A stretch of DNA of 64,000 nt, taken from Hellea sp. (GTDB lineage Bacteria > Pseudomonadota > Alphaproteobacteria > Caulobacterales > Maricaulaceae). Position 1 is the stretch's first letter. The number at the start of each line of letters is the position of its first letter. The translations under genes and the position numbers were made by a program. Positions 4,381 through 52,030 of the stretch are shown here, one piece after another. The stretch is from assembly GCA_014238285.1 (NCBI GenBank), contig JABABK010000001.1, positions 62,001 through 126,000 of the forward strand, written 5' to 3'. The notes under the pieces were generated by a model. The model was not told where the DNA came from, made no database searches, and was given only the letters and a program-made list of their open reading frames with translations.

Positions 4381-4487
4381 CACCCCACCCTTTATCCCTC
4401 CCCATCAAGGGGAGGGAGACGACGTGAGAAACTTTTGGTAAACATAATAACTTTCCTCCCCTTGATGGGGAGGGTTAGGGTGGGGTG
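4381..4487. repeat. Palindromic repeat family A, copy A1
   Basis: A long inverted repeat: the left arm begins CACCCCACCCTTTATCCCTC and continues through CCCATCAAGGGGAGGG; the right arm is its near-complement ending AGGGTTAGGGTGGGGTG, around a ~35-nt AT-rich interior. Each arm also contains an inner palindrome (CTCCCC-N6-GGGGAG). It lies between the convergent GFA and VWA genes and could terminate both. Copies at 7344, 7890, 14734 and 16865 share both arms. Confidence 0.9.
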
Positions 4488-4547
4488 AAATGGTGATCTC
4501 ACATCGAATAGCTTCAGAAAGTCTACTCAACTAATAACAAAACACCA

Positions 4548-7267: not shown

Positions 7268-7343
7268 ATATCCTGTAAGACGTATCTCAATCGGTAATCC
7301 TTGGAAAGTTTGGGAAATAATTTTATTTTTTTCCACAGAGTGT

Positions 7344-7471
7344 CACCCCACCCTCACCCTCCCCATCAAGGGGAGGGGAGGAAAATTTGAAATGGTCGGT
7401 CAAACTTCGTCTTTTTTTCCGCTAAAGTGACGGATAGGAAACAGAGATTACGCATCATCCGGGGTGGGGTG
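7344..7471. repeat. Palindromic repeat family A, copy A2 (inside 3' end of DUF559 gene)
   Basis: The left arm begins CACCCCACCCTCACCCTCCC and contains the CCCATCAAGGGG core. The right arm is shortened to CCGGGGTGGGGTG. The ~80-nt interior matches the interior of copy A3 (compare TGGTCGGTCAAACTTCGTCT here with TGGTAGGCCATACTTCATCT there, and a shared GACGGA-ATAGGAA block). The last 34 codons of the DUF559 gene lie in this repeat. Confidence 0.85.
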
Positions 7472-7827
7472 TCTATGGTAGGGTCGCGTAGAACCGCCTC
7501 GATATACCTGATCACGCCGTCATTAGACTCAGAGACGACATCATTCCAAAACCGCAGAACACGATAACCTTGGCTCTCAAGCCAGGCTTGCCGTTCAAAA
7601 TCTTTATCTCTTTGTTGGTTTTCCGCATGATGGCCTCCGTCAAGTTCGACGATTAATTTGTGCGAGTGGCAGACAAAATCAACGATGTAATTTCCTATCG
7701 GGGCCTGCCGCCGGAAATGAAATCCGCTTTTCTTTAAGTGTTTTAAATCCCGCCAGAGTTTCCGTTCCGCTTTGGTCATATTGCGGCGCAGGGTCTTGGC
7801 GAGCGGCGTGAATTTAGAGCGGGTCAT
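7366..7827 (-). CDS. DUF559-domain endonuclease-like protein embedded in palindromic repeats
   Basis: 153 residues. Residues 1-115 match the DUF559 pattern: ARR-type N-terminus (LAKTLRRNMTKAERKLWRDL), FHFRRQAPIGNYIVDFVC, then KLIVELDGGHH and YRVLRFWNDVV. D50, E61, D63 and H66 are candidate catalytic residues of a Vsr/PD-(D/E)XK-like nuclease fold (family knowledge plus inference). Residues 120-153 (from TPPRMM) are encoded entirely by repeat A2 and are probably a read-through tail. The ATG directly abuts a family A half-repeat whose GGGTGGGGGG serves as the only Shine-Dalgarno-like sequence. No methyltransferase is nearby, so a classical restriction system is unlikely. Confidence 0.88.
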   Translation of the reverse strand: MTRSKFTPLAKTLRRNMTKAERKLWRDLKHLKKSGFHFRRQAPIGNYIVDFVCHSHKLIVELDGGHHAENQQRDKDFERQAWLESQGYRVLRFWNDVVSESNDGVIRYIEAVLRDPTIDTPPRMMRNLCFLSVTLAEKKTKFDRPFQIFLPSP

Positions 7828-7870
7828 CCCCCCACCCTAACGTTTTTCATTCAATAAAAGAAGGGGAGGG
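7828..7870. repeat. Family A half-repeat forming the upstream edge of the DUF559 gene
   Basis: CCCCCCACCCTAAC followed after ~20 nt by AAGGGGAGGGA. The outer and inner parts match a family A left arm, while the middle is replaced by an AT-rich stretch. On the minus strand it ends GGGTGGGGGG directly before the DUF559 ATG. Confidence 0.7.
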
Positions 7871-7889
7871 ACTGTATTAAGCAGCGTGA

Positions 7890-8029
7890 CCCCCACCCTT
7901 TATCCCTCCCCACAAGGGGGAGGGGGCATGATATGGTAGGCCATACTTCATCTACTAGAGAGACGGAATAGGAATACAGGTCGTGCCTCATCTCCCTCCC
8001 CTTGATGGGGAGGGATAAAGGGTGGGGTG
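7890..8029. repeat. Palindromic repeat family A, copy A3
   Basis: Left arm CCCCCACCCTTTATCCCTCC with CCCACAAGGGGGAGGGG; right arm CTCCCTCCCCTTGATGGGG and AGGGATAAAGGGTGGGGTG; interior of ~75 nt homologous to that of A2. It is an intact long-interior copy just upstream of the DUF559 gene, and together with A2 it encloses the gene. Confidence 0.88.
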
Positions 8030-8115: not shown

Positions 8116-8490
8116 ATGTTTAGCCATGTCATGCTCGGCGCCGACGATATCCAGGCCTCAAAGACATTTTACGACGCAGCGCTCGGCGCCTTAGGGGCGC
8201 GCTCGGCCATGGTCGATCCCAAAGGCCGGGCGATGTATATGCATGGCGGCGGCATATTCATGTTATCCAAGCCCATAGACGGACAGCCCGCCAGCGCGGC
8301 CAATGGCAGTACGATCGGCTTTGCGGCCGCGACCCCAGAGGAAGCGGATGCTTTTCACAAAGCGGGGCTTGAGGCGGGCGGAACCGCCATTGAAGACCCG
8401 CCGGGCTGGCGTGAAGGCAATGGCATGAGACTATATCTGGCTTATCTACGGGACCCAGCAGGGAATAAGGTTTGTGCCATGTGCCGGTAG
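8116..8490 (+). CDS. VOC-family (glyoxalase-like) protein
   Basis: 124 residues, one VOC unit: MFSHVMLGADDIQASKTFYD at the N-terminus, the central NGSTIGFAAAT strand, and the C-terminal YLRDPAGNKVCAM signature. Usual metal ligands would be His4 and a C-terminal Glu; in the last strand the expected Glu/Ala position reads KVCAM, so metal-dependent catalysis is uncertain. CGGAGAC lies 8 nt upstream of the ATG. Substrate unknown. It lies between repeat A3 and a TPR gene in the same direction. Confidence 0.88.
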   Translation: MFSHVMLGADDIQASKTFYDAALGALGARSAMVDPKGRAMYMHGGGIFMLSKPIDGQPASAANGSTIGFAAATPEEADAFHKAGLEAGGTAIEDPPGWREGNGMRLYLAYLRDPAGNKVCAMCR

Positions 8491-14733: not shown

Positions 14734-14836
14734 CACCCCACCCTTTATCCCTCCCCATCAAGGGGAGGGAGACGAAGAGAAACCTTCACGATACACTTAT
14801 TTCCCTCCCCTTGATGGGGAGGGTTAGGGTGGGGTG
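14734..14836. repeat. Palindromic repeat family A, copy A4
   Basis: Both arms are intact: CACCCCACCCTTTATCCCTC on the left, AGGGTTAGGGTGGGGTG on the right, with a ~30-nt interior. Arms and overall length closely match A1. It lies between convergent genes (14687 and 14858), where it can act as a bidirectional terminator. Confidence 0.9.
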
Positions 14837-14857
14837 ACCTCGACCTTAGTTTGCCAC

Positions 14858-16717: not shown

Positions 16718-16864
16718 AGAGCAATTCGCGTCTTTCGCATCATTTAAGTGGATTATCGCTTTCGCCTTCATTGCAATCCACAATATTTAAAGAATTGTAA
16801 AATTGGAAGGAATGCTAATGGCTGCTTTTGCTGGATATTAAGGACACTATTTTGAACGGATCAT

Positions 16865-16966
16865 CACCCCACCCTAACCCTCCCCATCAAGGGGAGGGGA
16901 GAAATTTGAATGTTTAGGTTAAGCTTCGTCTCCCTCCCCCTTGTGGGGAGGGATAAAGGGTGGGGG
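16865..16966. repeat. Palindromic repeat family A, copy A5
   Basis: Left arm CACCCCACCCTAACCCTCCC and CCATCAAGGGGAGGGG, right arm CTCCCTCCCCCTTGTGGGG, AGGGATAAAGGGTGGGGG, with a ~40-nt interior containing AAGCTTCGTCT as in A2. It lies between the AraC gene and the small HTH gene. Confidence 0.88.
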
Positions 16967-17002
16967 TTCTATGAGTTAGACTGCGCTAAACACGGCAACA
17001 AC

Positions 17003-34102: not shown

Positions 34103-34217
34103 CTCCGCTCATCCCGCTGAAGAGCGGGATCCAAGCGATGTTTGGGTTAATGTACTTTAAAAATTAATCTGATTTTGCACTAGGCGTGGGCCCCGCTCTT
34201 CAGCGGGGTGAGCGAGT
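34103..34217. repeat. Palindromic repeat family B, copy B1
   Basis: CTCCGCTCATCCCGCTGAAG, AGCGGGATCCAAGCGATG on the left; GGCGTGGGCCCCGCTCTTCA, GCGGGGTGAGCGAGT on the right; AT-rich interior of ~40 nt. It is nearly identical to B3 at 35230 in sequence and orientation. It lies at the 3' side of the MipA/OmpV gene. Confidence 0.88.
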
Positions 34218-34228
34218 ATTAGGAGGAC

Positions 34229-35229: not shown

Positions 35230-35345
35230 CTCCGCTCATCCCGCTGAAGAGCGGGATCCACGCAATGGTTGGGTTGTTGATCCTTTAAAATAATTCTGAC
35301 TTTAATCTGAGCGTGGGCCCCGCTCTGCAGCGGGGTGAGTGAGTG
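35230..35345. repeat. Palindromic repeat family B, copy B3
   Basis: Same arrangement as B1: CTCCGCTCATCCCGCTGAAG on the left and GCGTGGGCCCCGCTCTGCAG on the right, ~40-nt interior beginning ATGGTTGGGTTGTTGATCC. It is in direct orientation relative to B1, so B1 and B3 bracket the MipA/OmpV gene. Confidence 0.88.
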
Positions 35346-35374
35346 TTTAAACCCGCTCCACACTATCCGGCAAT

Positions 35375-38216: not shown

Positions 38217-39884
38217 TTAATAGTCAGCTATTGTCTTTAGTTTTAGGATTACATCGTTTTTTAATTGTTGTCCGATCCGATAGTTACCAACAAACTCTAT
38301 TGCTTGATGTTTGTTCGTCAATCCTAAGGAAGTTAAGTGAGCTACGGAGCTTTCAATTTTTTCAGAGTCACCTGATTTTATCGAACACATAAGATCTATG
38401 ACTGCATACCAAGTCAAATTTTGTTTTGAAAACCGATTAAAGCATTCTGTGCCAATATTAGTAAAACTTCCATAAAGCGAATTGTGAATCACTTCAATTT
38501 CATAGTGACTATTATCCTGATACCCACTCAAGTTTCTTGCCCGCTCTGCGTAAACCAGAGCTTTGTCCCAGTTCTCTAAAAAATAGCCTTCTACGTGCGC
38601 TATAAGCATCATGAACTCGGAATTGTAAGAGTATTTCTTTTCAAGTAGAAAAACCATGTGGCGCATAATTTCCAAATCTGGGTTTTTTTTCGTAAATTCT
38701 ATGTGTAAAGAGTAATATAAAATGAAGTTATCATCTGGACTTAATTCTTGGGCTGTTTTGATATGATTTTCTGCATATTCTACCGTCCAGTGATCAGGCA
38801 TTTCAACTATATCGACATTGGCATTTAAAATAGCCTTGCCTAACAACATATATTGGGCCGCAGAAGCGGTTTTCTTTTTTATAAGGTCTTCCATGCATGA
38901 ATAGGTTGGGGCAAATAAATTTGCAGCATCATTCGACCAATAATCGTACATACCGGCAATACATACTACATTCGATTTCATTGGTGAATTGGGAGATTGG
39001 GATTTTAAAACATGCTGCGCAATAAAGCCTATTGGGTTGACAAAATTGTCCGTCAATTGAGCGACTTTTTCAAATGCTCCACTTTCCGAACTCGATATAT
39101 CCACCGACGTACTGGCTAGTAACAAGCCTGATTGTTCTTCTTTGGCGCGTAAGGAAATATTCGTCATATTGTTTCTGTCAACCATCGACACACTCAATAT
39201 ATAAATTTGCGCGGTTTCGGGGCACAAATCTGTACTTGAAATATGTTTAACGCCTAGGGATTGAATGATTGCCGCTTTTATGACCTCTACATATTGTTTG
39301 TGTTCATCACTTTGATTTCTTATCATAGGGTCGTAGTCAAGTTTGACGTTTGGGTAATAAATCGAGCAGTTATCAGAAATATCTTGACTGTTTTTAAGCC
39401 CTGTTTTTGAAATGAAAGTAAAGGCCAATAACATTATAATAAAAACGGCAGCTGCTCCGAGTAGGATGAAATTAGATTTAGCTGTCTTTTTGGGATGTGG
39501 TTTTTTGGGTATGTGCGGAGTGTCTGTCAGTTTTTCGTTGACGTGAATTAAAAACCCTCCTTTGGGGAGCTCAATTACAAAAGGGTTGGCGCCGCCATTA
39601 AAAACTTTCAAATTCTTACGTAGCCGGGACATTTCGGCGCGAACTATACTATCTATTTGTGGATCGAAATCTTGTGGCCGTTCAAATATATCGATGGCTA
39701 TGGCATAGGCGCTAATTTGCTCGCTTTCGCCGAGGGCATTTTTCTCTAACAGATATTTCAGAAGGTTTTGCTGTCGCCTTGATGTTCCAAGAACATTACT
39801 GGCTAAGACAGCGTCATATGCTTCTTCCCAAGAGCTCACTACAATCCTTTGTGCACATTCCAGTTGGAATCGAACACCCCGCAT
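38217..39884 (-). CDS. Membrane-bound DNA-binding-like/TPR protein, tandem paralogue 1
   Basis: 555 residues. The N-terminal ~110 carry the conserved block VSSWEEAYDAVLASNVLG, RRQQNLLKYLLEKNA, ISAYAIAIDIF and DFDPQIDSIVRAEMSRLRKN, followed by IELPKGGFLIHV. This resembles a winged-helix-like domain that precedes sensor or TPR domains in many bacterial proteins (family knowledge). One transmembrane helix (about 134-158, FILLGAAAVFIIMLLAFTFI) leads to a periplasmic region with weak TPR-like helices (for example YAENHIKTAQELSPDDNF). It suggests a ToxR/CadC-like membrane regulator. It shares its N-terminus with the next two genes but has a more divergent C-terminus. Start could be the internal GTG before SSWEEAY. 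Confidence 0.82.
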   Translation of the reverse strand: MRGVRFQLECAQRIVVSSWEEAYDAVLASNVLGTSRRQQNLLKYLLEKNALGESEQISAYAIAIDIFERPQDFDPQIDSIVRAEMSRLRKNLKVFNGGANPFVIELPKGGFLIHVNEKLTDTPHIPKKPHPKKTAKSNFILLGAAAVFIIMLLAFTFISKTGLKNSQDISDNCSIYYPNVKLDYDPMIRNQSDEHKQYVEVIKAAIIQSLGVKHISSTDLCPETAQIYILSVSMVDRNNMTNISLRAKEEQSGLLLASTSVDISSSESGAFEKVAQLTDNFVNPIGFIAQHVLKSQSPNSPMKSNVVCIAGMYDYWSNDAANLFAPTYSCMEDLIKKKTASAAQYMLLGKAILNANVDIVEMPDHWTVEYAENHIKTAQELSPDDNFILYYSLHIEFTKKNPDLEIMRHMVFLLEKKYSYNSEFMMLIAHVEGYFLENWDKALVYAERARNLSGYQDNSHYEIEVIHNSLYGSFTNIGTECFNRFSKQNLTWYAVIDLMCSIKSGDSEKIESSVAHLTSLGLTNKHQAIEFVGNYRIGQQLKNDVILKLKTIADY

Positions 39885-39963
39885 TACTTTAAGCGGGTGG
39901 CAAGGGCTTGTCTATTGCTTAAGTCGAGTGTGAGCCGCTATCGCTGTTTAAACCTCAGTGGTT

Positions 39964-41559
39964 TCAATTGGAAAACACCGGACAGTCTTTCAGCACTTTT
40001 TTATCCAGATAAACGCCTGAAACTGATGTGTGAAAGTTTCTGAATTTCACATAGTCGATGTATTTTTCTTTTGTTTCCATATCTTGGGATTTCGCCATAT
40101 TGATTGTATCAGAGAGATCGTCTGTTGGTTTCAAATGACAGGATAACGCAATATTATAGGACGCGGCAAATTTGGATATTGTCGGAGAAACCAAATTGTA
40201 GTGTTTTAAAGCTTGATCCTGGTCATTTAAGATTAGAGAATGCATGGCGTATATTAGATGTACATTGCTGGGTTTATGGCTCACGCCAACAGAAAGCATG
40301 TCCGCATAGAAAATTGCCTTTTTCCAGTCCCCCAAAAAAACCCCATATATATAAGCCCCATAAAATTGAGCATTCAGGTTATTGGAAAAGTCATCCAGCA
40401 ATTCTCCAATTGATTCATTCAGCGCTGATGTATCAAGAGGCCGTTTATAAGTTTCAATTTGCGTGTCCATCATGTGATGACGTAGTGTTTTAAACGCTAA
40501 TTCTTCGGCTGTTTTCAATTCGTGTTGCGCTAGTTGTAGCGGATTTGAAACATCGATTTTTATGCCGCCCACATGGGCTTGAGAATAGACGTTTGCGCGC
40601 CGAAGATGAATGAGGCTTTTTTCCTCCACCAAATGGGTGAGCTCAGGGCGTAAACACTCAAGGGGCGATTTGTTAAAGTATTTTGGCGCATCTTTCATTG
40701 TGTGAGTGAGGGCAAAGAATACACATTTGAAAAGATATTGTCTGGTCTCGGAAATTTCAGTGTTTGTTGCGTGATATAAAGATAAAAAACCTAACGTATC
40801 GAAAATGTCAAAGTGAATTTCGCGAATTAATATGTCGGATATCAGGTCAGTATTTTTTCCCGCTAACGTATATTTTTTTGACCAAATGAGCTTGCCGCCT
40901 TTTGTATATATTAAAGCGCAGAGTAATGCGTCGTCGATTGAAAATTTGATCCTATAATCTTGGTTCGATTGTGTAGAGGGAGAGGCCCAATTATCGCGTT
41001 CTGCCAAAGCGTGTAGCTCGCTTTCAAGTTTTGCCATGCCTGGCTTAAGTCTTTCGCGGGCGTTTTTTTCATCGACTTCGATATAATATGTAATCTTGAA
41101 AGTTTCGTCTATCGGCCGCAAATTTCCGTTAGACTTTGTTTGAAAAACCAACAGAAGTAGCCCGCCGAAAACAACGGCTATACCACCGATAATAAACTTA
41201 TTGATAATGGACTTAAAATGGGTTTTGGAATCACCTTGAGTGACCTGAATATGGAAACTTCCTAAAGGCAGACTGATATGAAACCCATGGTCGTCCCCAT
41301 TAAAAACTGTCAGGTTTTTACGTAAGCGAGACATCTCAGCGCGGACAATACTGTCAATTTGAGGGTCAAAATCTTTAGGGCGTCCAAAAACGTCGATGGC
41401 GATACCATACGCGCTGATCGGATGGTTGAGTTCGCGCGCGTTGTGCTCTAAAAGATAGGCGAGTAGGTCTCGTTGCCGCTTTGAGGTTCCAAGGACATTC
41501 GCCGCTATAACCGTTTCATATGCTTCTTTCCACGAACTCACTTCATTTCTTTTAGACAT
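39964..41559 (-). CDS. Membrane-bound DNA-binding-like/TPR protein, tandem paralogue 2
   Basis: 531 residues. The N-terminal block is VSSWKEAYETVIAANVLG, KRQRDLLAYLLEHN, ISAYGIAIDVFGRPKDFDPQ and DSIVRAEMSRLRKNLTVFNG, then SLPLGSFHIQV. A transmembrane helix lies at about 127-147 (FIIGGIAVVFGGLLLLVF). The periplasmic part matches paralogue 3 closely (RPIDETFKITYYIEVDEKNA, LYHATNTEISETRQYLFKCV and YGAYIYGVFLGDWKKAIFYA). Gap to paralogue 3 is 7 bp, so they share a transcript; the gap to paralogue 1 is 79 bp. Confidence 0.85.
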   Translation of the reverse strand: MSKRNEVSSWKEAYETVIAANVLGTSKRQRDLLAYLLEHNARELNHPISAYGIAIDVFGRPKDFDPQIDSIVRAEMSRLRKNLTVFNGDDHGFHISLPLGSFHIQVTQGDSKTHFKSIINKFIIGGIAVVFGGLLLLVFQTKSNGNLRPIDETFKITYYIEVDEKNARERLKPGMAKLESELHALAERDNWASPSTQSNQDYRIKFSIDDALLCALIYTKGGKLIWSKKYTLAGKNTDLISDILIREIHFDIFDTLGFLSLYHATNTEISETRQYLFKCVFFALTHTMKDAPKYFNKSPLECLRPELTHLVEEKSLIHLRRANVYSQAHVGGIKIDVSNPLQLAQHELKTAEELAFKTLRHHMMDTQIETYKRPLDTSALNESIGELLDDFSNNLNAQFYGAYIYGVFLGDWKKAIFYADMLSVGVSHKPSNVHLIYAMHSLILNDQDQALKHYNLVSPTISKFAASYNIALSCHLKPTDDLSDTINMAKSQDMETKEKYIDYVKFRNFHTSVSGVYLDKKVLKDCPVFSN

Positions 41560-41566
41560 TCCGGTG

Positions 41567-43204
41567 CTACATCACTGTGGCAAAAACCGAGCAATCTTCC
41601 AGGACTTTTTTATCTAGATAGATATCTGAAACTGCCGCGTGAAAGTTACGAAATTTCACATAGTCGATATACTGTTTTTTCGTCGCGAGGCCCTGAGATT
41701 TTGCCTGGCTACCAATCTCAGAAAGATCACTTTCGGGCTTTAAAGTACAGGAAAAGGCGATGTCACGGGCCGCAGCAAATTTAGATATTTCGGGTACGAT
41801 CAAATTATAATGTTCTAAGGCTTGATCATGGTCGTTTAAGGTTAGGAAATGCATTGTGTAAATTTGATGTATAAAGCCACGGCGGTTCTTCTGGCGTGCA
41901 GAAATCATGTCCGCATATAAAGTTGCCTTTTCCCAATTTCCCAAATAATAGCCATATACAAAAGCTCCATAATATTGAGCCATCGGGTTAGTGGAAGAAT
42001 TTTCAAGTAATTCCCCGACAGATTCATTCAGCGCTTTTAAATCAAGGGGCTGTTTATAAGATAGGATTTTCGTGTTTACGATGTGATAGCCTAATGTTTT
42101 GTAGGCTAGTTTTTCCGCCTTTTTCAGTTCGGATTTTGCTAAGATTAGAGGACTGGAAGCCTTGGTTTTGATCCCTCCTATATGAGCTTGCGAATATATA
42201 TTGGCCCTTAAGACGTGAATGAGGCTTTTTTCTTCAGCTAAACGGGTGAGTTCGGGCCGCAAGCAATCGAGCGGCAAAGATTGCAAATATTTAGGCGCAA
42301 ACTCTATCGTGTGAGTCAGGGCGGCGAAAGCGCATTTATAAAGGTATTGTTTTGTTTCGGAAATTTCAATATTTGTTGCGTGATATAATGGCAAAAACCC
42401 CACCGTAAAGAAAACGTCCATATATACCTTACGGACCAATACATCTGATATGGGATCAATCCCGTCTTCCGGCATCGTATATTTTTTAGACCAAATCAGC
42501 TTGCCACTTCTCGTATATATTAGGATACACAGCAATTTATCATCATTTGAAAATTTGAGTGTATAATCTTGGTTCGGGTCTGTTGAAGGCGATGACAAAG
42601 GACCCCATGCGGCCAAAGCGTGTAGCCGGCTTTCAAGTTTTGCCATGCTGAGTTTCGTTCTTTCACCAGAATTTACTTGGTCAACTTCGATATAATAAGT
42701 GATTTTGAACGTTTCGTCGATGGGCTGCAAATTATCCGTGGATTTTGGTTGAGAGGATAAATGGGTCCACAGAAGAAACACACCTACGATAAGGGCTACA
42801 CCTCCACTCATGAAAGCTTTAAGCCTAGGCTTAGAGGTGGATGTTACGGTTTCCTGAGTGAATTGAATTTTGAAACTTCCTTTTGGAAGATCGAATTGAA
42901 AACCATGCTCACCGCCATTAAAAACGTTCAGGCTTTTACGTAAGCGAGACATCTCTGCCCGGACAATACTGTCAGTTTGCGGGTCAAAATCTTTAGAGCG
43001 GCCGAAAACGTCAATAGCGATACTATAGGCGCTAATTTGTTCGCTTTGTCCTGCAGCACTTTTTTCTAAAAGATGGGAGAGCAAGTCATGTTGGCGCTTT
43101 GAGCTGCCCAAAACATTTGACTCTAGAACAGCCTCATATGCTTCTTCCCAAGAACTCACGTCTACCCTTATATGCACCAAATAGTGTTCGTTACCCTGCT
43201 TCAC
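41567..43204 (-). CDS. Membrane-bound DNA-binding-like/TPR protein, tandem paralogue 3
   Basis: 545 residues, the first of the three in transcription order. The N-terminal block is VSSWEEAYEAVLESNVLGSS, KRQHDLLSHLLEKSA, ISAYSIAIDVFGRSKDFDPQ and DSIVRAEMSRLRKSLNVFNG. A transmembrane helix near 134-152 (AFMSGGVALIVGVFLLWTHL) precedes a periplasmic domain very similar to paralogue 2 (QPIDETFKITYYIEVDQVNS, YHATNIEISETKQYLYKCAF). Likely the product of a recent duplication of paralogue 2. Function is probably transcriptional regulation in response to a periplasmic signal (inference). Confidence 0.85.
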   Translation of the reverse strand: MKQGNEHYLVHIRVDVSSWEEAYEAVLESNVLGSSKRQHDLLSHLLEKSAAGQSEQISAYSIAIDVFGRSKDFDPQTDSIVRAEMSRLRKSLNVFNGGEHGFQFDLPKGSFKIQFTQETVTSTSKPRLKAFMSGGVALIVGVFLLWTHLSSQPKSTDNLQPIDETFKITYYIEVDQVNSGERTKLSMAKLESRLHALAAWGPLSSPSTDPNQDYTLKFSNDDKLLCILIYTRSGKLIWSKKYTMPEDGIDPISDVLVRKVYMDVFFTVGFLPLYHATNIEISETKQYLYKCAFAALTHTIEFAPKYLQSLPLDCLRPELTRLAEEKSLIHVLRANIYSQAHIGGIKTKASSPLILAKSELKKAEKLAYKTLGYHIVNTKILSYKQPLDLKALNESVGELLENSSTNPMAQYYGAFVYGYYLGNWEKATLYADMISARQKNRRGFIHQIYTMHFLTLNDHDQALEHYNLIVPEISKFAAARDIAFSCTLKPESDLSEIGSQAKSQGLATKKQYIDYVKFRNFHAAVSDIYLDKKVLEDCSVFATVM

Positions 43205-46291: not shown

Positions 46292-49200
46292 CTATTTACG
46301 GGCGCCGCGATAGCGGAACTGGACTTTGCCTGTGGCTTCGTCGCCGCCCATGCCAGCAGATGCCCCGAATGACCAATTATCATTGCCGCGGATCGCAAGC
46401 GTTGCGCCAAAGCCGATCTCATCACCGTAGGCGGCAAACCCGCCTGAAGCTGCCCAAGCATCATCCGAGGCTAGGTACATATCGGGCAGAGCGGCGATGG
46501 CAGCCATGCCTTCTTCAATATCGGAAATCCGAGATGAATTGCCGGCAATCGCCGTGGCGTTGGCATCAATTCGCGCAAAGGCTTGATCGATTTTGATCGA
46601 GTTACGCGCGATCTCCTGCGTGTTGACATTAATGGCGTCAGCATCAACGCCGACGGCTTTCATGGTTTCTCGAAGGACACTGTCTCTAGCGTAACGGTTA
46701 GCCGGAATTGAACGATTTGTGTCGGCCTGGACTTCTTGCAAGTTCGTCCCGACAAGTTCTTCCGAGACTTCTGTTGGCTCGGCTGCCCCCTGAACATCGC
46801 CTTGGATCTTACCAGAACTACCTTGTCCGGTATCTTCGGTCGCATCAGTCGTTTCAACTTGGGCATCAGAAATAACCGGCGTTGCACTGTTATTTGCGAC
46901 CGGTACTGGATCCTCAGATGTTGCCAGATTTCCGCTACCATCAGATGTCACATAATAGACTGCGCCCGTTTGCCGATCTTTGGACAATGTCGAGGTTATC
47001 CCCGGCATGACATAAGTCGTGCTGCCCATGCCAAACACCATCTGATTGGCAAGTGACGTCGTTGCGCCAACGCCGAAGGCTGAAGAGTTAGAATGGGACG
47101 CACCTACTCTGGCGTTTCTGCCGACTGCTAGCGAGTTCGTGGCATTAGCCTGTGAACCCAAACCGACAGCGATAGATCGCAACCCCGTTGCCTTAGCCGT
47201 TGCGCCCACAGCTAGGCTGAGGCGCCCGGAGGCCTCGGAGCGTGCCCCGATGGCGGTCGAGCCAATACCCGTGGCTCTGGCCGCTGCGCCCATTGCCATC
47301 GTGCCTTCCTGCGTGGCCTGGGTGCATTCGGTTGCCACATCAATCCCGCCGCTCCCGTCAAGGTCGGAGCACCCGCCAATGGCTGTGGCGTTATTACCAG
47401 TGACCGCCGTGCCCACGCCAATGGCGACGCCGTTATTGGCGCTCACCGATGAGCTTGCCCCGATGACGATGTTGTCATTGCCAGTGGCGGAGCCGCCGGA
47501 CGTGCTATTGCCGCCAGCGACAAAGTTACCAGTGCCTTCAACCGTAGCATTATGTCCGGTAACCACGTTCCAGCCAGAACCCGCGCCGTTGACTGTATTG
47601 TTATCGCCAAGGATTTTGACATGAGAGCCTGCGACGCCAATCGAGTTGATATTATTATCAGATCCCAGAACATGCATGGCGGTCATATTATCACCGCCGC
47701 CGCCACCTGCCACGCAGGTTACGCCTACGCCTGGATCGCTATCCTGACATAGATCATTACCCGCGCCCATAATGACAGAATCCATCACAAAATTACCGAC
47801 CGCGTTGTTTTGTCCGCTGACAGTATTTCCATTATTGACCACGCCGAGACTATTGCCCGTGCCAGAGACCGCATTGCTTTCGCTGGAGCTGTCTATGCTG
47901 TTACCAGTGCCGCTCACGGAATTGTAGCGGTTGGTATTCCCGAGCGTGTTGCCTTTGCCGCTCACGATATTGTGTGAATTGTAAGTGCCTAAAACATTGC
48001 TATTGCCGCCAAGAATGTTGTTGGTACCGCGAGTCCCCATTAGGTTTAGAGCGCCGCTAATGGCGTTATTTTGACTATAGGTGTCGATCGTATTGTTGTT
48101 GCCGCTGACACTATTTCCGGTGCCCACATTGCCAAGCAAATTGCTGATCCCGCCGACCATATTGCTGCTGGCGCCGCTACTAATAATATTGGAATAGCCG
48201 CTGATATTATTACCTGAACTGGCAGCGCCTATAGTGTTTCCACTGCCGCTGACGGTGTTCATATTGCTGGAATTTCCGACTGTGTTGCCCTTGCCGCTAA
48301 CATTATTGTCAGAACTTTCCTGGCCCAGCGTATTATATCGCCCGCCAATAATATTAGCGTCGCCTGTATTTCCGGAAACTGTGAACACATCATCTGCGGT
48401 GCCGAGAATTGTATCGGTACCAGCCGCGCGGGTTGCGCCGAGCGCATTGCCGACACCGCTGATGTTATTGGCGCGAGCATTGTTATTGCCGCCCGCAACT
48501 CCGTCACCATTGCCGATGAAATTGTAGGACCCGCTAACCGTATTATCAGTTGTTTTATCGCCGAGCGTATTTTCTCGTCCGCTAATGGTATTAACAAATG
48601 AACTTGATCCGAGATCGTTAGAAAAGCCGCTCACTATGTTCGCGAGACTGAAATCTCCGACCGTATTGAAATATCCATTGACCACATTCATGTGGTTGGT
48701 GTTTCCAAGGGTGTTATCCCGCCCGCCAACGGTGTTGTGTTGGTTGCTATTGCCCAGTGTATTATCTTTGCCGCTGACAGAGTTATAATGAGTTAGATCG
48801 CCTAGCGTGTTATAGGCGCCGCTGATTGCATTGGCGCTATTGGTCGTCCCGATGGTATTGCCAAGGCCGCTAACCGTGTTCAGAAAACTATCATTGCCAA
48901 GCGTGTTATCCTGTCCGCTGACAATATTGACGGAAGCATTGGATCCAAGTGTATTATATCGACCGCCAATGATATTGGCATCGCCGGTAAAACCGGACGC
49001 CGTAAATACGTCATCCTCCGTGCCCAATCTTGTATCGGTACCCGCCGCGCGTGTCGCGCCCAATGCATTGCCGACACCGCTCATCATATTGGCACGCGCA
49101 TTATTATTGCCGCCCGCCATTCCCTCCGCGTTGCCGATGAAATTATAGGACCCGCCGACAGAATTATCGGTCGCCCAATTGCCAAGGGTGTTCGCTTTCC

Positions 49201-52030
49201 CGCTCACTGTATTGTACAGATTTGTATGGCCTAAACTGTTAAATCCACCGCTAACATGATTAGAAAGAGCCGCTTGGCCGATCGTGTTGGATTGACCGCT
49301 GACTGCATTATCGCGGCTCAGTTGGCCCGATGATGCGCTGTTAAGGGTGTTGTTTTGTCCGCTGATCTGGTTGCCAAGAGCGCTAGAACCCAGAGTATTA
49401 TTATACCCGCTAATTGCATTATATTGATTGCTGCTTCCAAGAACATTCTGTCCGCCGCTAATAGCATTATCAGTATTGGTGTCGCCCATCACATTGTAAT
49501 AACCTGAAACTGCATTACGCTCATTATCGGAGCCTAATATCATATATTCACCGGTCACTAAATTATGATCATTATTCACGCCAGATGAAGCAAACCCCTG
49601 TAATGAATTGGCGTGGCCACCGATAATATTATTATCGCTGTTCGCGCCCAGACCATTGCTGTCGCCGCTGACGGCATTGCCATTGTTATTTGAGCCAAGG
49701 GAGTTGTCGTCACCGCTTAAAAGATTGTTCGAGGCATTAGCACCAATGGCATTGCCATAGCCACTGACGGCGTTTGCGTTGCTGCCACTTCCAAGCGTGT
49801 TGTTTTGCCCGTTGACGGCATTATCCGAACTTGTACTGGCCAGTGTATTATACCGCCCGCTAACGATATTGGCGTCGCCGGCATTGCCGGACGCGGTGAA
49901 CACGTCATCCCCTGTTCCGAGTATTGTATCGACGCCTGCCGCCCGGGTCGCGCCGATGGCATTGCCGACACCGCTGATATTATTCCCGCGGGCATTATTA
50001 TTGCCGCCGACCACACCATCGCCATTGCCGATGAAATTAACTCGGCCACTGACGGCGTTAACAGAGGTATCATTCCCAAGATTGTTTAACTTACCGCTGA
50101 CACTATTATATTGATTAGTATTTCCCATTGTATTTTCGCCGCCACTGACATCGTTTGAACGCGCATCATTTCCCATGGTGTTGAGAACGCCGCTGACGTC
50201 ATTGCCAAGGCCAAGTTCGCCCATCGTGTTCACATAGCCGCTGACTTGGTTTCGGGAACTGTTAATCCCCAATGTATGGGATTGGCCGCTCAGAGCATTC
50301 AAAACATTACCGTCTCCGGATGAGTGGCCTAATCCGCTAACAGCATTGTATGAGTTGTTCGCGCCCATTGTGTGCCTGCTGCCACTAACAAGATTATCCC
50401 TGTTTGTACTTCCCAGCGTGTTTCCATAACCGCTAATGGCGTTGTGTGCATTATAATCGCCAAGACTATTGTTCCAACCGCTGACGGTGTTGTGGAAACT
50501 ATAATCGTCAAGACTATTGCCCTCGCCGCTAACAGCATTGTTCGACACCTCGTCGCCTAATGTATGAAATTGACCAGAGATGATATTGTTCTCGCCGGCA
50601 TTTCCGGAGGCTGTGATGACATCATCCGCAGTCCCTAGATAGCCATCTACGCCCGCCGCGCGGCTTGCGCCTATGGCATTATATTGTCCGCCGATTATAT
50701 TGCCCGACGCATCATCATTGTCAGAAACACCATTATTCGCGCCAGCTCCAATGAAATTATTTCTGCCGCTGACGGCGTTATTTCCACTAGAACTGCCGAG
50801 TGTGTTACTAAGACCACTAACCGCATTGTAATCGCTTCCAAGCAATGTGTTATATCGACCGGCGACGGTGTTGTCTGTGCCTGTCACATTATTATAAGTT
50901 CCGCCAACGGTGTTGGCCATGGAACTCGCTCCCAGTGTGTTAAATCTACCGCTGACGCCGTTGTGAGTGCCATAATTTCCTATAGAGTTGCCGCCGCCGC
51001 TGACAGCATTCTGGTAGGTGGCCGTGCCCAGTGTATTATTACCGCCATTAACGACATTCTGGTTTGCATTTGCCCCGAGCGTATTTTTATAACCGCTCAC
51101 ATCGTTGTAATCACTATCGCTCCCGAGCGCGATATAATAACCGCTGATATGATTATGGGAACTGTCCTGTGCCAAAGAGTTGAAACCGCCACTGACGGCA
51201 TTTTGATGACTGTCCGCACCCAGACTGTTATTATTGCCGCTGATGATGTTTTGTGATGAATTTAATCCGAGCGAGTTGGTGTCGCCGCTGACATTATTTT
51301 TATTACTGTTTTCCCCCAATGAATTACTGCCACCACTTACAGCGTTTTGATCGGCGTTTAAGCCGATCGTGTTATACGTGCCGCTGACTATATTCTCGTC
51401 ACTGTTGTTTCCTAGTGTGTTGCTAAGGCCGCTGACCGCATTTTGGTCGCTGAAAGCCCCGAGTGTGTTGCTATAGCCGCTGATCGCGTTTCGGTTGCTG
51501 GCATTTCCGAGCGTGTTGTCCCTGCCGCTGACCGCGTTACCCTTATTGTCTACCCCAAGACTATTTAACAGGCCACTGACCGCGTTATAGTTGCTGAAAT
51601 TCCCGAGTGTGTTGAGCCTGCCGCTGACTGCGTTTTGGTAACTGTTATTCCCGAGTGTGTTGCTAAGGCCGCTGACCGCGTTTTGGTAGGTGTAATTCCC
51701 GAGTGTGTTGCTGTTGCCGCTGACCGCATTGTCGTGGTTGTAATCGCCAAGCGTGTTATTAGCGCCGCTGAGGGCGTTGTTGTCACTGTAAGATCCCATA
51801 CAATGGGCTGTACCGCTGACATCATTTCCGTTGCGGCCATTCGCCGGTGCCGCCGTAATCACATCTGCGATCAAGCAGTCCGCATTGACCGTTCCGTCAT
51901 AGGCGTCCGTGTCATTATTTTGGGCTGCGGCAGGTGCGGCGAGTGCCAAAGTGATAACGGTCGATGAAGTGAGAGCTAAAAGCCATGTCTTGAGGCGCTT
52001 TGATGGCAGGTTTTGAATATTATGTGACAT
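46292..52030 (-). CDS. Giant trimeric autotransporter adhesin (YadA-like, type Vc)
   Basis: 1,912 residues from the ATG at 52030 (AAGGAGA upstream). Extended signal peptide with basic N-region (KRLKTWLLALTSSTVITLAL, cleavage near AAA-QN). Residues ~45-1500 are dozens of 16-residue repeats of the form N-x-VSG-x-x-NTLGN-x-S-x-x, a left-handed beta-roll head. Four longer blocks (GATRAAG-x-D-x-x-LGT-x-DDVFTASG) interrupt it. Near residues 1500-1720 a YadA-type head follows (AVGATAKATG, AVGLGSQANATNSLAVGRNA). A coiled-coil stalk and a 60-70-residue membrane anchor (SRISDIEEGMAAIAALPDMY to VQFRYRGARK) end the protein. It is secreted through the anchor and probably mediates attachment or aggregation. 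Confidence 0.93.
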   Translation of the reverse strand: MSHNIQNLPSKRLKTWLLALTSSTVITLALAAPAAAQNNDTDAYDGTVNADCLIADVITAAPANGRNGNDVSGTAHCMGSYSDNNALSGANNTLGDYNHDNAVSGNSNTLGNYTYQNAVSGLSNTLGNNSYQNAVSGRLNTLGNFSNYNAVSGLLNSLGVDNKGNAVSGRDNTLGNASNRNAISGYSNTLGAFSDQNAVSGLSNTLGNNSDENIVSGTYNTIGLNADQNAVSGGSNSLGENSNKNNVSGDTNSLGLNSSQNIISGNNNSLGADSHQNAVSGGFNSLAQDSSHNHISGYYIALGSDSDYNDVSGYKNTLGANANQNVVNGGNNTLGTATYQNAVSGGGNSIGNYGTHNGVSGRFNTLGASSMANTVGGTYNNVTGTDNTVAGRYNTLLGSDYNAVSGLSNTLGSSSGNNAVSGRNNFIGAGANNGVSDNDDASGNIIGGQYNAIGASRAAGVDGYLGTADDVITASGNAGENNIISGQFHTLGDEVSNNAVSGEGNSLDDYSFHNTVSGWNNSLGDYNAHNAISGYGNTLGSTNRDNLVSGSRHTMGANNSYNAVSGLGHSSGDGNVLNALSGQSHTLGINSSRNQVSGYVNTMGELGLGNDVSGVLNTMGNDARSNDVSGGENTMGNTNQYNSVSGKLNNLGNDTSVNAVSGRVNFIGNGDGVVGGNNNARGNNISGVGNAIGATRAAGVDTILGTGDDVFTASGNAGDANIVSGRYNTLASTSSDNAVNGQNNTLGSGSNANAVSGYGNAIGANASNNLLSGDDNSLGSNNNGNAVSGDSNGLGANSDNNIIGGHANSLQGFASSGVNNDHNLVTGEYMILGSDNERNAVSGYYNVMGDTNTDNAISGGQNVLGSSNQYNAISGYNNTLGSSALGNQISGQNNTLNSASSGQLSRDNAVSGQSNTIGQAALSNHVSGGFNSLGHTNLYNTVSGKANTLGNWATDNSVGGSYNFIGNAEGMAGGNNNARANMMSGVGNALGATRAAGTDTRLGTEDDVFTASGFTGDANIIGGRYNTLGSNASVNIVSGQDNTLGNDSFLNTVSGLGNTIGTTNSANAISGAYNTLGDLTHYNSVSGKDNTLGNSNQHNTVGGRDNTLGNTNHMNVVNGYFNTVGDFSLANIVSGFSNDLGSSSFVNTISGRENTLGDKTTDNTVSGSYNFIGNGDGVAGGNNNARANNISGVGNALGATRAAGTDTILGTADDVFTVSGNTGDANIIGGRYNTLGQESSDNNVSGKGNTVGNSSNMNTVSGSGNTIGAASSGNNISGYSNIISSGASSNMVGGISNLLGNVGTGNSVSGNNNTIDTYSQNNAISGALNLMGTRGTNNILGGNSNVLGTYNSHNIVSGKGNTLGNTNRYNSVSGTGNSIDSSSESNAVSGTGNSLGVVNNGNTVSGQNNAVGNFVMDSVIMGAGNDLCQDSDPGVGVTCVAGGGGGDNMTAMHVLGSDNNINSIGVAGSHVKILGDNNTVNGAGSGWNVVTGHNATVEGTGNFVAGGNSTSGGSATGNDNIVIGASSSVSANNGVAIGVGTAVTGNNATAIGGCSDLDGSGGIDVATECTQATQEGTMAMGAAARATGIGSTAIGARSEASGRLSLAVGATAKATGLRSIAVGLGSQANATNSLAVGRNARVGASHSNSSAFGVGATTSLANQMVFGMGSTTYVMPGITSTLSKDRQTGAVYYVTSDGSGNLATSEDPVPVANNSATPVISDAQVETTDATEDTGQGSSGKIQGDVQGAAEPTEVSEELVGTNLQEVQADTNRSIPANRYARDSVLRETMKAVGVDADAINVNTQEIARNSIKIDQAFARIDANATAIAGNSSRISDIEEGMAAIAALPDMYLASDDAWAASGGFAAYGDEIGFGATLAIRGNDNWSFGASAGMGGDEATGKVQFRYRGARK

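Follow-up and report, generated by a model that had tools for sequence, protein, structure and literature searches.

A DUF559 nuclease gene enclosed by BoxC-like palindromic repeats: a candidate selfish cassette in Hellea sp. and other bacteria

DUF559 genes lie between copies of a C/G-rich hairpin repeat in many bacterial phyla; gene and repeats behave as one movable unit, a cassette whose existence is well shown. Our preferred reading, to which we assign a probability of about 0.6, is that the gene and its flanking repeats constitute one selfish REP-nuclease cassette that probably spreads by homing-like cleavage and repair at the repeats. The window analysed here is a stretch of 64,000 nt from Hellea sp. 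(contig JABABK010000001.1, positions 62,001 to 126,000). A preliminary description of this window had proposed that its DUF559 nuclease and the adjacent repeats form a cassette, and this proposal was strongly supported by association, copy number, duplicates and syntenic sites.

The DUF559 gene and the repeats of the window

The DUF559 gene of the window (Table 1) is the only PF04480 gene in the 3.74-Mb Hellea sp. genome, and its ORF is intact. The encoded protein matched PF04480 over residues 7-113 with 138 bits, against a curated cut-off of 20.6, and DUF559 and MTES_1575 were the only matches in the Pfam search. The conserved E, D, ExDGG, H and D residues are complete, with E21, D50, E61, D63, H67 and D76 occupying the invariant alignment columns. 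In a PDB profile search, DUF559 matched 3HRL at 1e-39 and, at 1.2e-4, the homing endonuclease I-Bth0305I (3R3P). When the predicted model was compared with solved structures, both 3R3P (E 7.6e-5, TM(target) 0.75) and 1VSR (E 1.8e-3) were matched, with 3HRL and I-Bth0305I ranking above Vsr. Both the fold and the acidic/His residues of the protein are therefore those of an EDxHD or Vsr-like nuclease. A role in defence was rejected, as a PADLOC search gave only weak partial matches for the window protein and none for YcjD. A VOC/glyoxalase-like gene (8116-8490) neighbours DUF559 in the window; four related loci, L157, L163, L173 and L174, which belong to a different genus, share this arrangement, possibly by coincidence.

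In the window, each repeat unit joins a hairpin (CCCTCCCC-loop-GGGGAGGG) to a G-rich head behind it (TTAGGGTGGGGTGA), and two such units with their heads outward form a REPIN-like pair. The hairpin with its purine and pyrimidine blocks and a mirror-matched G-rich third block, CCCTCCCC-ATCAA-GGGGAGGG-TTA-GGGTGGGG, displays the design of BoxC, the intrastrand triplex motif. The pattern CTCCCC-N3-8-GGGGAG occurs 23 times in the Hellea sp. genome versus once for the reversed control, and the palindromes of the window are therefore beyond chance. Thirteen of the 23 sit within 25 kb of the contig (C80) surrounding DUF559; when repeat events outside the cassette were counted, 5 of 14 lay inside 31 kb (binomial 7e-8). 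This local clustering recurs weakly in the family, where clustering near DUF559 beyond 600 nt was modest (13 versus 5.3 expected). An Rfam search with the repeat returned no family.

Table 1. The DUF559 gene and the associated repeats (window coordinates).
Feature	Position	Strand	Description	Scores
DUF559 / EDxHD-type (Vsr-like) endonuclease gene	7366..7827	minus	153 aa	PF04480 E=1.4e-40
Repeat pair A2, DUF559 3' side	7343..7471	.	left unit complete (7343-7381), hairpin CCCTCCCC-ATCAA-GGGGAGGG; right part (7460-7471) head only, after interior	7345-7378 HMM 14.2; DNA fold z -4.1
Degenerate half unit, DUF559 5' side	7828..7872	.	head CCCCCCACCCTAAC abuts ATG; the hairpin after it, GAAGGGGAGGGAC, is decayed	
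Repeat pair A3, upstream of DUF559	7889..8029	.	two complete hairpin units, head-out, 69-nt interior	7891-7925(-) HMM 11.7; 7991-8027(+) HMM 10.0; DNA fold z -7.6
Repeat pair A1	4381..4488	.	gene-less, short interior	HMM 10.4 and 14.8; DNA fold z -8.6
Repeat pair A4	14734..14838	.	gene-less, short interior	
Repeat pair A5	16864..16967	.	gene-less, short interior; inverted vs A4	

The pairs A2 and A3 flank DUF559 in the same orientation, that is, as direct repeats. Their interiors of about 80 and 69 nt, respectively, versus about 31-37 nt in the other pairs, agree with the preliminary description, which had contrasted long interiors in A2 and A3 with short ones in A1, A4 and A5. Its placement of both gene ends was likewise borne out. 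The start codon (7825-7827) immediately adjoins the half-unit head GTTAGGGTGGGGGG. At the other end, the left hairpin of A2 contains the stop codon (7366-7368), and codons 119-120 extend to the right head of A2 (7460-7471), leaving residues 120-153 encoded by the repeat. These last 34 residues are predicted to be disordered (pLDDT about 40-60), and read-through has thus made the 3' repeat part of the DUF559 gene. The suggestion that GGGTGGGGGG serves as the ribosome site of the gene could not be established, because its spacing to the ATG is 0-4 nt.

The window also contains repetitive sequences of other kinds. A second, unrelated palindromic family (CGCTCATCCCGCTGAAGAGCGGGATCC...) occurs twice, at 34103-34220 and 35230-35347, as near copies whose arms are inverted. 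The long array at 48609-51826, whose tandem units recur every 48 nt (motif CCGCTGAC...GTGTT), is probably a gene for a repetitive surface or secreted protein, and 300-nt blocks duplicated at 68-77% identity within 39535-43154 (39535/41237/42855 and 40290/41899) are likely to represent tandem paralogous genes.

Association of DUF559 with repeats across bacteria

Within the same bacterial family, comprising Robiginitomaculum relatives of the Alphaproteobacteria, 30 DUF559 genes were inspected. Nearly all of these are flanked by such repeats, whose sequences vary while the plan is constant. In a scan of species genomes covering 80 DUF559 loci from many phyla, 42% of the loci had a flank-to-flank inverted-repeat score above the 99th percentile for 720 control ORFs, a figure whose top score, at L057, is an N-run artefact; the later profile test is independent of this locus. 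Across the DUF559 loci a near-universal unit was recognisable, CCCTCTCC(C)-loop-GGGAGAGGG-TTAGGG-TGRGGG, with the head toward the gene on both sides. A repeat profile was trained on 13 units from loci L046-L085 and tested on loci outside the training set. A unit was found within 250 nt of DUF559 for 32 of 40 cross-phylum genes and 14 of 19 same-family genes, while control ORFs in the same loci had one in 5/639 cases upstream and 10/639 downstream. The unit density was 4.6/kb within 300 nt of DUF559 versus 0.02-0.14/kb farther out, and the nearest head pointed to the gene in 33/36 cases upstream and 28/36 downstream. The profile yielded 395 matches versus 5 in the reversed-sequence control. Furthermore, a family search throughout the Pseudomonadota placed a unit beside 20 of 29 DUF559 genes, with heads facing the gene in 13/15 and 16/17 cases; the loci that lacked a profile match mostly carried other C-rich palindromes missed by the profile, for example the Mesorhizobium type. 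In all three sets the majority of DUF559 homologues thus had adjacent repeats. Direct REPIN-gene-REPIN layouts were common among the loci, and the gene NGO0050, which encodes the protein of structure 3HRL, is also located between such repeats. DUF559 copies with internal stops were still found between repeats (L059, L073, L115 and several same-family copies), which would fit a selfish gene that is gained and then decays.

The number of repeats per genome depends on the presence of DUF559, a relation that the preliminary description had proposed as a test. Among 119 same-family genomes, the palindrome excess over a reversed-pattern control had a median of 4.3/Mb with DUF559 versus 0.8/Mb without it (p=1e-7). 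Repeat copy number also tracked DUF559 in 199 Pseudomonadota genomes (p=2e-15), with repeat-rich genomes making up 26 of 55 with the gene versus 6 of 144 without it (p=4e-12; within-family permutation 0/20000). Exceptions were the repeat-rich genomes G150, G167, G172, G261 and G291, in which no DUF559 was found, and G209, which has only a broken DUF559. Four of them, namely G291 (family f34), G172, G150 and G261, contain 25 to 115 pattern matches, and we offer the reading that these repeats are relics or belong to another enzyme. Conversely, some genomes with DUF559 have few repeats outside the cassette. Cassette-specific repeats were detected in 7 of 22 multi-copy genomes, a mixed result. CGTC REPs are another repeat class without a transposase. 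At the loci examined for them, no CGTC-tagged REP (TTCCCG...CGGGAA) lay closer than 500 nt to DUF559, and a link between them and DUF559 was rejected.

Duplicated cassettes, syntenic sites and alternative explanations

Duplicate DUF559 cassettes within the genomes G026, G024 and G018 are alike between their outer repeat edges and unrelated beyond. The G026 copies are 98.8% identical over 672 bp; the 8 positions at which they differ are all in the repeats (outer 163 nt) and the 509-nt core has none, a pattern that exchange through resident repeats would produce. The G026 and G018 junctions show no clear short target-site duplication. The G026 site, which lies beside the same downstream gene in same-genus relatives, was followed in comparisons between species. 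It is bare in G318 and carries a lone gene-less repeat pair in G099, a genome in which no DUF559 was found. In G105 the site holds DUF559 between two repeat pairs and in G320 DUF559 with single units, both in the orientation opposite to G026. As judged from these sequences, the series G318/G099/G105/G026 may reflect gain or, alternatively, loss via direct-repeat recombination. At the G018 site, both gene and repeats are absent from G042 and G031. Syntenic sites in relatives thus lacked the gene either together with the repeats (G318, G042 and G031) or beside a lone repeat pair (G099), an outcome in favour of the cassette proposed in the preliminary description. At the G105 site, the native flank beside the repeat pair (CCGGGCTTTCC...) recurs over about 18 nt next to the DUF559 start (L271, G105:C8, around 380-400 and 880-905), and the duplicated block hence seems to span flank and repeat pair. 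For the window's own locus, an empty-site comparison identified the sigma-factor orthologue in three congeners, with the other side not syntenic. The DUF559 copies on Azospirillum megaplasmids turned out to descend vertically from a single locus that has no empty site.

Conceivably, the nuclease could act like a transposase that excises and pastes (or copies) the repeats and the cassette, much as RAYT moves GTAG REPs, with no role for homologous repair. The exact stop of the duplicate cassettes at the repeat edges, with unrelated flanks, and the REPtron-like layout would both agree with this. We nevertheless regard such a mode of action as unlikely, as the fold is of the Vsr/homing and not the HUH type, the G026 and G018 junctions lack a clear short target-site duplication, the differences between the G026 copies are concentrated in the repeats, and the resident repeat pair is retained at the G099/G105 site. 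Moreover, the RAYT-type domain PF01797 is absent from the Hellea sp. genome and showed no link with repeat number (p=0.28), and RAYT was rejected as the mobiliser of the repeats. In REPtrons, where RAYT accompanies GTAG REPs and REPINs (Pseudomonas, E. coli), a small gene likewise lies between inverted hairpin repeats, gene-less pairs are scattered, the distribution is patchy and repeat number is tied to the gene. There, however, the enzyme is an HUH tyrosine transposase, whereas the DUF559 cassette encodes a PD-(D/E)XK/EDxHD nuclease, and its repeat units have a G-rich third block after the hairpin and end in CACCCC / GGGGTG-type heads instead of a GTAG tag. Since the enzymes are unrelated, the cassette is not a RAYT system despite its layout. 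Of the earlier idea, the cassette stood; the processing of hairpins by the nuclease is hypothetical, and a RAYT-like transposase action seems less likely, as the fold relatives (I-Bth0305I, Vsr) and the junctions fit cleavage and repair of the homing type better than a reaction of the IS200 type.

A second alternative is that DUF559 is a housekeeping enzyme, a VsrA-like structure-specific or mismatch nuclease that deals with triplex or hairpin trouble at repeats or with deaminated 5-methylcytosine, and that its adjacency to repeats results from co-regulation or selection rather than mobility. The Vsr-like fold is in line with this idea. In addition, Caulobacter VsrA, itself a DUF559 protein, is genetically linked to a cytosine methyltransferase (PMC12907096), and BoxC-type motifs reportedly destabilise genomes (PMC4666352). 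However, DUF559 and C5 methyltransferases were independent in the 119 same-family genomes (44/73 vs 29/46, Fisher p=0.85), 29 genomes with DUF559 having no C5 methyltransferase that we could find. The preliminary description was right that no methyltransferase lies near the window gene, but this says little, since in the family the two genes occur independently of each other. A Vsr repair role was rejected, as no methyltransferase link was found; mismatch repair would also leave the repeat flanks unexplained. Nor would a housekeeping function predict heads that face the gene, duplication of the cassette, its joint absence with the repeats or a patchy distribution, and we consider it quite improbable. 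That an orphan intergenic gene merely sits in repeat-rich spots, or that terminator repeats gathered around it by chance with no functional link, is highly improbable: REP-type repeats are generally intergenic and many DUF559 copies are decaying, several with internal stops, but repeats are rare at control ORFs of the same loci, their heads are consistently oriented, and genome-wide copy number depends on DUF559 even within families.

BoxC, homing endonucleases and the proposed selfish cassette

The repeat of the window matches E. coli BoxC/PIT, the intrastrand triplex motif, which is known from E. coli and >260 genomes (PMC4666352) and whose triplex in solution was measured for the E. coli motif only (PMC4666352). 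The BoxC / PIT / TM motif and the DUF559 repeats share the design CCCTCTCCC-loop-GGGAGAGGG-spacer-GGGTGAGGG as well as inverted pairs of two types, a very wide distribution and a link to rearrangement (PMC4666352). They differ in that no mobility genes were reported near the published motif (PMC4666352), whereas a nuclease gene constantly accompanies the repeats described here. E. coli itself possesses a DUF559 gene, ycjD. In K-12, a BoxC unit that scored 22.9 with the repeat profile used for the window lies about 170 nt past the ycjD stop, and a decayed hairpin overlies the stop. The K-12 ycjD segment is kept in 3333 of 5375 matched genomes, and eefRABCD takes its place in many strains; this swap has been described without mention of repeats (PMC12817139). 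Similarly, a DUF559 gene has already been placed in the EDxHD homing family, in a section on inteins that leaves repeats unmentioned (PMC9403480). No paper linking DUF559 to repeats was found in a literature search that covered mostly journals outside subscription.

EDxHD homing endonucleases (I-Bth0305I) and free-standing homing endonuclease genes resemble DUF559 in profile and fold, in the E-D-H-D type residues and, as the species comparisons suggest, in the presence or absence of a cassette at one site. In contrast to these, no intron or intein was seen around DUF559, and its apparent target is not a unique gene site but a palindromic repeat that is dispersed and that borders the gene as well. 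The selfish cassette that we propose would have a REP unit or pair on either side of the DUF559 nuclease, their G-rich heads directed at the gene. Its nuclease would recognise and cut the repeat, perhaps in a hairpin, cruciform or triplex form, and repair from a repeat-flanked copy could then insert the cassette into repeat pairs or duplicate pairs, gene-less pairs being non-autonomous passengers or relics. Judging from the fold relatives and the junctions, homing-like cleavage of the repeats is probably the mechanism of spread.

More tentatively, and at somewhat less than even odds, these cassettes may represent a pan-bacterial selfish class in which a nuclease of the EDxHD/Vsr fold homes into, and so multiplies, dispersed triplex-forming palindromes (BoxC and relatives). 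If true, BoxC would gain its first enzyme partner in DUF559, and the cassette would be a homing system that targets its own flanking repeat family instead of a unique gene. The link provides a candidate enzyme for BoxC-type repeats that is testable in K-12 (ycjD) or with NGO0050 (3HRL). It would also assign a function to the large DUF559 family, which has lacked one, and REP-type repeats would then have a second route of origin, one independent of HUH enzymes.
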